NCBI RefSeq assembly: GCF_001866075.3
Contig: NZ_CP063356.1
Span: 2,346,164 to 2,410,163, forward strand
DNA length: 64,000 nt
Reading direction: 5' to 3'
Source: Anaerobacillus isosaccharinicus
Lineage (GTDB): Bacteria > Bacillota > Bacilli > Bacillales > Anaerobacillaceae
The notes under the pieces are model-generated. The model was not told the origin of the DNA. It did no database searches and saw nothing but the letters and a program-made list of their open reading frames with translations. The position numbers were made by a program, and so were the translations under genes. Positions 45,596 through 47,585 of this stretch are shown here, in pieces. The number at the start of each line of letters is the position of its first letter. The stretch's first letter is position 1.

Positions 45596-45644
45596 GCGTT
45601 TTTTAGATAACTTACATATGATGGCCGAATGCACAATAAGTAAT

Positions 45645-45786
45645 GAGGCTGGGACATAACTAAAGTGTTTAACTGAAAATCCGAACAATACAAAACCATA
45701 GCGAAGTATATTTCCGAAGCGATTGATATGTACCAACTACCATTGTTCGGATTTCTCATTGATTAAAACACTTTTGTCCCAGCCTC
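45645..45786. mobile_element. MITE-like inverted-repeat element (142 bp)
   Basis: The ends are 12-bp perfect inverted repeats GAGGCTGGGACA/TGTCCCAGCCTC. They continue inward as AAAGTGTTT/AAACACTTT and AAATCCGAACAAT/ATTGTTCGGATTT with small offsets. No coding capacity. GGCTGGGACA-type short elements are widespread in Firmicutes. Its right end abuts the truncated DUF2922 remnant, so insertion or recombination here probably cut that copy. Confidence 0.65.
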
Positions 45787-45787
45787 C

Positions 45788-45899
45788 GATGACCAGTGAT
45801 ACTTTCTCTGTATCGACTGGCTCAATTTGGTCACCTTATGAGTTCGATACGTTTCTACCAATCTCATTATTAAAAAATTAATTCGATTTTCCTCGCCAT
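45788..45899 (-). pseudogene. Decayed partial copy of the DUF2922 gene
   Basis: Read on the minus strand it starts ATGGCGAGGAAAATCGAATT and follows the first 37 codons of the gene at 39322-39546 at roughly 85% identity. It has an inserted T that shifts the frame into stops and other small changes. It is cut at the MITE boundary. The promoter at 45910-45942 is joined directly in front, whereas in the intact operon the DUF1659 gene lies between. Confidence 0.75.
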
Positions 45900-45970: not shown

Positions 45971-46486
45971 TTAAGTTGTTGAAACGTAGGTGCCATCGCA
46001 GGGAGTATTGAGGTGTAGTTTCAACTTTTTAATCGCTTCAAGTCGCCAAGTTTTCACTGTGTTGACTGAGACGTTATGTTCTTTGGCAATTTGCTTCGGA
46101 CCTTTGCCGTGCTCAAGATGTTCAACCAACCACAACTTTTCTCTGTCAGATAAATAGGAAAGAACTGGCCTGAGTGGAATTGTCATCACAACGGTCGCTG
46201 CTTGTGCAGGTAACTGTTCAATGATTTCCGGCTCGTCGAACATAACCGTTCGCTCGCGAATTTTCTTTTCTTTATTTAAAAAATGTAACATCTTGCCCCG
46301 AATGTATTTTTTGACGTAACTAGGGAAGTGCCCTTTTTCTCCCGAGAAGCGTTCCGAAGCCTCCCAGATCGCAATTAAGCCGATTTGGTATAGCTCATCA
46401 AAATGTTTCGTTCCGTGCAGCTGTCTAATCTGCTTTTTCACAAGTGGTGTAAATGCCTCGACTATTTCTTCAAACGATCTATTCAT
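45971..46486 (-). CDS. Sigma-70-like factor
   Basis: This protein has 171 residues. The N-terminal region 2 part reads FEEIVEAFTPLVKKQIRQLH, then FDELYQIGLIAIWEASERF with the DELxQxG core-binding pattern and YVKKYIRGKMLHFL. The C-terminal region 4 helix-turn-helix reads KQIAKEHNVSVNTVKTWRLE. No region 1 or 3 is seen. The frame continues upstream to 46603, but the ATG at 46486, with GGAGAG 8 bases before it, gives the conserved start and leaves the operator array outside the gene. The three P1-P3 promoters nearby are its best candidate targets. Confidence 0.8.
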   Translation of the reverse strand: MNRSFEEIVEAFTPLVKKQIRQLHGTKHFDELYQIGLIAIWEASERFSGEKGHFPSYVKKYIRGKMLHFLNKEKKIRERTVMFDEPEIIEQLPAQAATVVMTIPLRPVLSYLSDREKLWLVEHLEHGKGPKQIAKEHNVSVNTVKTWRLEAIKKLKLHLNTPCDGTYVSTT

Positions 46487-46574
46487 TTCACTAACTCTCC
46501 AGCGGAAAGCGCGCTCTCCAAATATTCCGCGGTTACCCTTATTATTGCGCCCCAGAGGTTGGCTGTCATATCGC

Positions 46575-46655
46575 CAAACTTCATGTTTCACATGCCCAAA
46601 CATGAAGTTTGACTAGGTGAAACTTCACGTTTGGATAGGTCAAACTTAAAGTTTG
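46575..46655. promoter_or_regulatory. Array of four 15-bp dyads with 22-bp period
   Basis: CAAACTTCATGTTTC (46575), CAAACATGAAGTTTG (46597), GAAACTTCACGTTTG (46619) and CAAACTTAAAGTTTG (46641) are imperfect palindromes, each separated by seven bases (ACATGCC, ACTAGGT, GATAGGT). The period is exactly 22 bp, about two helical turns, so four proteins would bind on one face. The array lies 18 bp upstream of promoter P3 and 89 bp upstream of the sigma start. It may be a cooperative operator or an iteron array. Confidence 0.8.
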
Positions 46656-46672
46656 GCCATATTTTGAAAATG

Positions 46673-46705
46673 CCCCACCCCTTCTTAAAAAAACTTGTAT
46701 TTATA
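46673..46705 (+). promoter_or_regulatory. Special sigma-type promoter P3
   Basis: CCCCACCC (46673-46680), 14 bases, TTGTATTTATA (46695-46705), then CAATGAAGGGGGAG and ATG 46725. Boxes and spacing are identical to P1. The short leader means the transcript starts only about 10-15 bases before the coding region. Confidence 0.65.
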
Positions 46706-46724
46706 CAATGAAGGGGGAGTTCAA

Positions 46725-47585
46725 ATGTTAAAAAATGGACAAATCGAAAATTTCAAAAATTACTCACAGTTTCAATCAGTCGCGGAGTTTAATGAGCATT
46801 TTGGTTCATGGATGGAGAAATTTGGACGCGAGTTTACGAGAAGTGAAAAAATTGCTCTTGTGCAGCTGAGCCGTTTTGCGGTGAAGGTTGTCGGTGTCAC
46901 GAATTTGAAGATCGGAACGGCTCTGAAGGTTTTACATGAAAAATACAATGGTAACGGCATTTCTCGCTCAACTTGGAAGCGTATGAGCGCTAAAGCAAAA
47001 AAGATCGGCCTTCTTGTTGTCCACGAAATGAAGCGTGACAGCGGCGGCCAATCGAGTAATTTATATGTGTTTATGCGCTTTGAAGGTGGGGGAGGGAACT
47101 TGGACGATTCGGGAGGTGACAGGCACTTGTCGAATCGGAACTTGTCGAACCAACCTGAACCACCTTGCGCCGAAAAATTGAACCACCATAAAACTAATAA
47201 TTTAGAAACTATAAAAAAAGATATAGAAAAGAATTGTAATGCCGTGTCTGAACTAGCGGCTGAACCACTGGATCATACATACACAAGTGACCATGTTCCA
47301 AGACCGTTTGTGAATCTGGTCAAAGTTTTTTTCAACAACTGCGACACCATTGAAGAATACTGGAAGATGGCCAAACTAGCAGCCTATAAGTATGTCCTCG
47401 AAAAAGACCATACTCTCGTGTTAGATGTGGCGATCCAAGCGTTTAAACAGATGATCCGAAAGCTAAAGAAGGTGCGACTTAAAAAGCCGATTGCCTATTA
47501 CTATACAATTGCTCTAAACAAATTTGCTGATCAGTTCTACCAGGAGCTAGACGAAATAGGAGAGAAAGATGTTTATGGAATGTAA
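46725..47585 (+). CDS. Winged-helix-like protein of unknown function (possible replication or regulatory protein)
   Basis: This protein has 286 residues and is not firmly recognised. The N-terminal 120 residues (FTRSEKIALVQLSRFAVKVV, then ISRSTWKRMSAKAKKIGLL and SSNLYVFMRF) look like a winged-helix domain of the sort found in plasmid or phage replication proteins. A low-complexity linker follows (about 120-190). The C-terminal half is helical and basic (AFKQMIRKLKKVRLKKPIAYY). ATG 46725 follows AAGGGGGAG. The frame extends upstream to TTG 46695, but that lies in the -10 box. Four 22-bp-spaced dyads precede it, which fits either an autoregulated DNA-binding protein or a Rep-like initiator. Confidence 0.6.
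   Translation: MLKNGQIENFKNYSQFQSVAEFNEHFGSWMEKFGREFTRSEKIALVQLSRFAVKVVGVTNLKIGTALKVLHEKYNGNGISRSTWKRMSAKAKKIGLLVVHEMKRDSGGQSSNLYVFMRFEGGGGNLDDSGGDRHLSNRNLSNQPEPPCAEKLNHHKTNNLETIKKDIEKNCNAVSELAAEPLDHTYTSDHVPRPFVNLVKVFFNNCDTIEEYWKMAKLAAYKYVLEKDHTLVLDVAIQAFKQMIRKLKKVRLKKPIAYYYTIALNKFADQFYQELDEIGEKDVYGM

Follow-up and report, generated by a model that had tools for sequence, protein, structure and literature searches.

A phased array of four short dyads beside a sigma factor gene in Anaerobacillus isosaccharinicus is probably a four-site operator at which a ComK2-type activator switches on a dedicated sigma factor. The window, meaning the whole 64-kb stretch of DNA analyzed, holds the array between a minus-strand gene for the sigma factor and a plus-strand gene for a 286-aa winged-helix (HTH) protein. 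The basis computed here is the sequence of the array, its recurrence upstream of sigma relatives, its helical spacing, its fixed distance from the promoter, and the linkage of the sigma gene to comK. From these we infer binding of ComK2 to the boxes, activation of the sigma gene by that binding in A. isosaccharinicus, and whatever influence the system has on the divergent winged-helix gene. The features of the locus are as follows.

45971-46486, minus strand: sigma-70 family factor P0002, 171 aa (PRK06759, 134.1 bits; cutoff, 133)
46508-46532, minus strand: two palindromes at the sigma start site and in the leader, CCGCGG (46527-46532) and AGCGCGCT (46508-46515)
46541-46569, minus strand: sigma gene promoter, -35 ATGACA (46569-46564), 17-bp spacing, -10 AATAAT (46546-46541)
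46575-46589, no strand assigned: box 1, CAAACTTCATGTTTC, read directly and scanned; close to the -35 of the sigma promoter
46597-46611, no strand assigned: box 2, CAAACATGAAGTTTG, read directly and scanned
46619-46633, no strand assigned: box 3, GAAACTTCACGTTTG, read and scanned; retained in the 1118-kb paralog
46641-46655, no strand assigned: box 4, CAAACTTAAAGTTTG, read and scanned; retained in the 1118-kb paralog
46678-46716, plus strand: inverted repeat CCCCTTC (46678-46684)/GAAGGGG (46710-46716), covering the ribosome-binding site of the HTH gene
46725-47585, plus strand: divergent winged-helix (HTH) protein P0001, 286 aa (phrog_1835, 1.9e-31)

The array is regular and rare. Direct reading and scans agree with the original prediction that it consists of four 15-bp dyads at an exact 22-bp period with seven-base spacers, which read, in order, ACATGCC, ACTAGGT, and GATAGGT; the outermost pair is mismatched in two of the four dyads. 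The strict pattern SAAACN5GTTTS matched four times in the window, at the four boxes only, and in 200 dinucleotide shuffles it averaged 0.465 matches per window, with a maximum of 4 and no pair at 22 bp. Moreover, when sets of four phased 5-5-5 dyads were sought without a fixed motif, each dyad with at least 4 of 5 arm pairs and at periods of 16 to 39, the window yielded a single array, 46575 to 46655, and 20 shuffles yielded a mean of 0.2 arrays (maximum, 2). When the tandem pattern was sought in the whole genome with up to two mismatches, six of the 10 places found were in two sigma loci, that of the window and that of the paralog at 1118 kb. Counts at two mismatches were no better than a reversed control (10 versus 12 in genome G000), and thus only matches with zero or one mismatch are informative; all of those lie in the two sigma loci, and the remaining four places have two mismatches. 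Genome positions 4368836 to 4368870 (L118 2837-2871) hold a less exact dyad pair, with a 22-bp period, two mismatches, and an ACTAGGT spacer like that of the array; jetD/jetA-like genes of a Wadjet-type system lie 63 bp downstream of it, and the pair may be due to chance.

Phased boxes recur upstream of related sigma genes. The paralog at 1118 kb, a second copy of the sigma gene that is 87% identical, retains four units spaced at 22 bp, of which a single arm is worn, though its HTH gene is broken. Within the genus, two sigma genes at loci without the HTH gene are preceded by boxes that match at 6 to 8 of 8 positions, spaced at 31, 22, and 21 bp in G003 and at 22, 32, and 31 bp in G002, and G001 has both genes with a worn array between them. 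More broadly, 112 sigma loci were taken (32 of the 53 matches of one search and 80 kept of the 225 of another), and removal of 17 near-copies left 95 upstream regions. There, AAACN5GTTT (at least 6 of 8 positions) formed 30 pairs at a lag of 22 bp versus 3.0 expected from shuffles, with further excess at lags of 20, 21, 23, 31, 32, 40, 51, and 53. Lags of 20 to 23 accounted for 80 pairs versus 0 to 7 at nine other offsets in the same loci, and lags of 31 to 32 accounted for 27 versus 1 to 12 at nine other offsets. Pairs at either spacing (20 to 23 or 31 to 32 bp), here called K-type, were found upstream of 45 of the 95 nonredundant sigma relatives and, at eight control offsets, in 9/95, 1/95, 7/94, 5/92, 1/90, 12/89, 3/60, and 3/60 regions; the pooled Fisher value of 5e-23 comes from related loci and is not a strict probability. 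Conservation of the period in orthologous loci, set beforehand as the observation on which the original prediction could fail, was partial, with pairs at those 45 loci and none by score at the other 50. Off-phase pairs were also commoner at the sigma upstream regions (17 of 95 versus 2 to 10 at controls), and AAAA-N5-TTTT at 7 of 8 positions peaked there as well (lag 21; 18 pairs versus 0.7 expected). Among Priestia sigma upstream regions, the script pattern detected a dyad pair at 22 bp in one of nine loci (G049), five more showed by eye a pair with a GTAA right arm, and three (G217, G087, and G143) had no dyad pair upstream of the sigma gene.

The boxes also keep a fixed distance from the sigma promoter. 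Five bases separate box 1 from the -35 element, with box 1 upstream. A promoter scan of the window is by itself no evidence, as it found 5 where 5.3 were expected, and the ATGACA-17-AATAAT promoter is assigned to the sigma gene because it is conserved, both in L007 and L036 and, as TTNG/TATNNT, in 83 relatives. The array had been placed 18 bp upstream of a promoter designated P3, a placement we abandon: the scan contains no plus-strand promoter 18 bp away, and the adjoining promoter is on the minus strand. In the 83 loci, a set selected with the start-site palindrome motif, box centers measured from that motif peaked at 56 to 57 bp (24 centers; about 2 expected), 78 to 79 bp (17), and 87 to 89 bp (29), with smaller peaks at 65 to 66, 99, 107, 109 to 111, 130, and 140 bp. 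The positions of box 1 (56 to 57 bp) and box 2 (78 to 79 bp) thus both recur in relatives, and the peaks put the first box just upstream of the TTNG/TATNNT promoter.

The sigma leader carries conserved palindromes of its own. The one at the likely start site reads ACC-NN-GGAAT in sigma relatives, with versions CCGCGG, CCCGGG, CCTAGG, and CCGGCGG, and the other precedes the ribosome site of the sigma gene and is centered on GCGCGC; in 54 of 83 leaders, the longest palindrome has GCGCGC at its center. RNA structure in the leader was considered and rejected, as RNAalifold returned no pairs for 45 of the 83 leaders and four single folds gave z values of -1.52 to 0.30. With no RNA pairing detected, the two palindromes look like DNA sites, and a second DNA-binding regulator at the sigma start region is possible. 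They differ in this from the 13-bp inverted repeat in the 5' UTR of Staphylococcus aureus sigH, which, in the accessible parts of the sources, limits sigH expression and acts after transcription. On the far side of the sigma gene, downstream of it at window positions 45640 to 45790, inspection by eye shows a long but imperfect inverted repeat, GAGGCTGGGACATAACT ... TTTGTCCCAGCCTC.

That a ComK-family protein reads the boxes is suggested by their geometry. The K-box of Bacillus subtilis consists of two AAAA-N5-TTTT boxes on the same face of the helix, separated by 8, 18, or 31 bp, according to the accessible part of one report (PMC3536758), and activation is elsewhere stated to depend on helix face. 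Like the K-box so described, the window array has half-dyad boxes with N5 between the arms upstream of a promoter, at a spacing that would set them whole helical turns apart on one face. Unlike it, the window has AAAC/GTTT arms, a spacer of 9 (31 between alternate boxes), and four boxes; a CTAGG-like spacer is conserved in Anaerobacillus, and G003 also has spacers of 8 and 18.

Regulation of a related sigma gene by ComK2 is on record in Bacillus cereus. In the accessible part of one report, the single source for a link between ComK2 and a neighboring sigma factor, overexpression of comK2 raised expression of the adjacent sigma gene BC5251 more than 1,000-fold, and BC5251 rose 2.6-fold with comK1 and 1.9-fold with B. 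subtilis comK (PMC3128618). The BC5251 quantitative PCR primer given there encodes QCGLIGLW, read by hand, and fits the motif of the window's sigma family, and the primer pattern matched once in 397 genomes, in G024 and away from its sigma gene. As described there for B. cereus, comK2 and the sigma gene are convergent in Priestia. The window is like B. cereus in having a sigma of the same motif family as one that lies beside a second comK and is strongly induced by comK2, but the window sigma lacks an adjacent comK and has the HTH gene divergent, and the accessible part of the B. cereus report names no operator. The fixed place of the array upstream of the -35 element is computed here, and control by ComK2 is known, within the accessible sources, only for BC5251. 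A sigma factor and two ComK proteins also appear in one circuit in S. aureus, where competence involves SigH with ComK1 and ComK2, again according to the accessible parts of the sources.

Sigma and comK genes are linked in many genomes. ComK matches turned up in 58 of the 61 genomes searched. In 16 of the 49 sigma-positive ones (G005, G011, G013, G014, G024, G028, G033, G037, G043, G044, G045, G046, G049, G054, G056, and G059), a noncanonical ComK gene lay no more than 1 kb from the sigma gene, divergently in 13 of the 16; both figures are hand counts, and the G005 copy contains stops. With the canonical line drawn in the phylogenetic profile at an E value of 1e-50, our own choice, noncanonical ComK was present in 46 of 49 sigma-positive versus 6 of 12 sigma-negative genomes (Fisher, 0.001; a hand count over related and sometimes incomplete genomes). 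The exceptions were G040 (none), G029 (fragments), and G035 (4.2e-50, counted as lacking). In a 74-row ComK tree, the 29 canonical ComKs grouped in a clade (97/91) that included none of the sigma-locus rows; all 33 of those rows, two of which are one gene fetched twice, fell outside it, but not as one clade (six label changes). The label "sigma locus" covers distances of up to about 8 kb (G010), and a sigma match lies beside L253 of G028 even though that row is labeled as not seen. Every Anaerobacillus ComK row in the tree lies outside the canonical clade.

How the array might work can be stated simply. Just upstream of the -35 element of a housekeeping-type promoter, ComK2 would bind cooperatively to the boxes, which share one face, and, once bound, would help RNA polymerase start the gene for the small sigma-70 factor, which in turn would relay the signal to a regulon of its own. 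Against this account we count several results. The positive control gave no K-type lag across the upstream regions of 29 canonical comK genes, and therefore the scan cannot be claimed to recognize K-boxes generally. The boxes are AAAC/GTTT with a spacer of 9, not AAAA/TTTT with a spacer of 8, and both the sigma loci without a pair and the off-phase pairs weigh on the same side. Moreover, sigma loci with ComK in view scored no better (13 of 26 versus 32 of 69 without), G040 has a sigma gene and no ComK match, and no comK lies near the window sigma copy, the nearest places in the genome being at 1187.7 and 4291.8 kb. Finally, the effect of comK2 on BC5251 in B. cereus may be indirect.

An indirect effect would fit a different binder. 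Some other regulator that shares the history of the sigma gene could occupy the boxes while ComK2 acts on sigma indirectly, and the negative canonical-comK control, the departure of box letters and spacer from the published K-box, and the presence of another conserved palindromic element, at the start site, which marks further control, all speak for it. We nevertheless regard it as unlikely given the spacing rule, the linkage to comK, and the expression data from B. cereus. The original prediction had raised a cooperative same-face operator as one possibility, with the 46725 product and the sigma protein as candidate binders; the operator is supported in kind, but comparison points to a ComK-family protein as its binder. 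That the boxes serve the divergent winged-helix protein in controlling itself and the sigma gene seems a rather poor prospect. The protein is divergent with a winged-helix-like N terminus, the two genes are neighbors in several lineages, and G001 retains an array, though worn, between them. If the operator belonged to the HTH gene, it should precede that gene wherever it occurs, and yet K-type pairs preceded only 2 of 16 HTH-family genes whose upstream region is separate from that of a sigma gene (one, in G058, in tandem upstream of sigma, and one, in G006, near a contig end), compared to 42 of 88 sigma genes at loci that lack an HTH gene (Fisher, 0.012). Only three of the seven loci with both genes score, and the paralog keeps its units without an intact HTH gene.

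The same tie to the sigma gene makes both this reading and a plasmid origin fit less well. Plasmid iterons of the R6K type are about 22 bp, and the array resembles them in unit length, in tandem phasing, and in a neighbor with plasmid relatives, such that the boxes could be iterons of a captured replicon with the 46725 protein as initiator. Relatives of that protein occur on 16 plasmid records, 11 of them covering at least 80% of the protein; the gene tables of p16118 and the pBM19 stretch, which are incomplete, show no other initiator; fold matches include phage replication proteins; and pBM19 has an array of different repeats at 21 to 44 bp. The array is chromosomal, however, stands at a fixed distance from the sigma promoter, and occurs without the HTH protein, and iterons should lie next to, and be conserved with, the initiator gene, whereas none of the four plasmids read has a 22-bp AAAC-N5-GTTT pair by the HTH relative. 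Each 700- to 800-bp plasmid stretch does hold single pairs at 21 or 31 to 32 bp, a raw occurrence not set against chance. The iteron proposal is thus set aside as highly improbable, and we conclude that a ComK2-type activator remains the better account of the boxes.

The divergent HTH protein nonetheless has a history of its own. An AlphaFold2 model (mean pLDDT, 76.3; pTM, 0.46) has a helical C terminus and supports the earlier suggestion of a winged-helix-like N terminus. The protein had no Pfam match above the cutoff, and a PDB fold search gave none under an E value of 0.001, the best being weak PadR-like winged helices. Its relatives adjoin the sigma gene in several lineages and lie about 130 bp or less downstream of a ComK gene in G000, G001, G002, G003 (twice), G004, G005, and G050. 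All three genes share a locus in G001, Bacillus taeanensis, Neobacillus niacini MER TA 87, and, if a weak HTH match is accepted, Bacillus sp. 7884-1; Calidifontibacillus erzurumensis (G022) has them in a stretch of about 6 kb. Perhaps, the HTH protein is a plasmid initiator that was recruited into a sigma/ComK circuit.

Several further observations concern the HTH family. The inverted repeat at 46678 to 46716 has a TATA-like loop, and similar repeats precede HTH relatives by eye. On pBM19 (L316 29-221), iteron-like repeats, ACCATTTTTGTTATA, occur at 21- to 44-bp spacing, and the HTH relative is some 0.8 kb downstream of them. The plasmid loci L314, L315, and L317 share by eye a leader of hairpin-like repeats with a terminator-like stem before the HTH gene; an Rfam search was negative for L314, L315, L316, and L001 as well as for the window. 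A plasmid of Heyndrickxia oleronia that encodes an HTH relative also has, about 6 kb from it, a gene of the sigma-70 family (L315 12593-12759). In L043 (5823-7478, at 1.18 Mb in the genome), one frame fuses a comM/YifB-like Mg-chelatase N-terminal part to the C-terminal half of the HTH protein.

A direct role of the window sigma in comG transcription was considered and rejected. Upstream of comGA, five of seven genus genomes have GGAAAA-N10-11-GTCGAA, which resembles a SigH promoter. Matches to the pattern were not above a reversed-pattern control, one gene besides comGA (MarR-like by eye) recurred with it in two genomes, and nothing ties it to the window sigma.

Open-licence literature on ComK2 and sigma, K-boxes, BC5251, and BAS5102 yielded no title or abstract start naming the array. 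A recurrent and well-placed array offers a direct binding test and a route to the role of the sigma factor across Bacillales, including species that have DNA-uptake genes and no known transformation. We speculate, tentatively, that Bacillales have an old second K-state: phased boxes would be read by an activator of the ComK2 type, which would fire a dedicated sigma factor with a regulon other than the canonical ComK regulon. In Anaerobacillus, this relay may be the only ComK pathway left, with a plasmid-initiator-like winged-helix protein drawn in.
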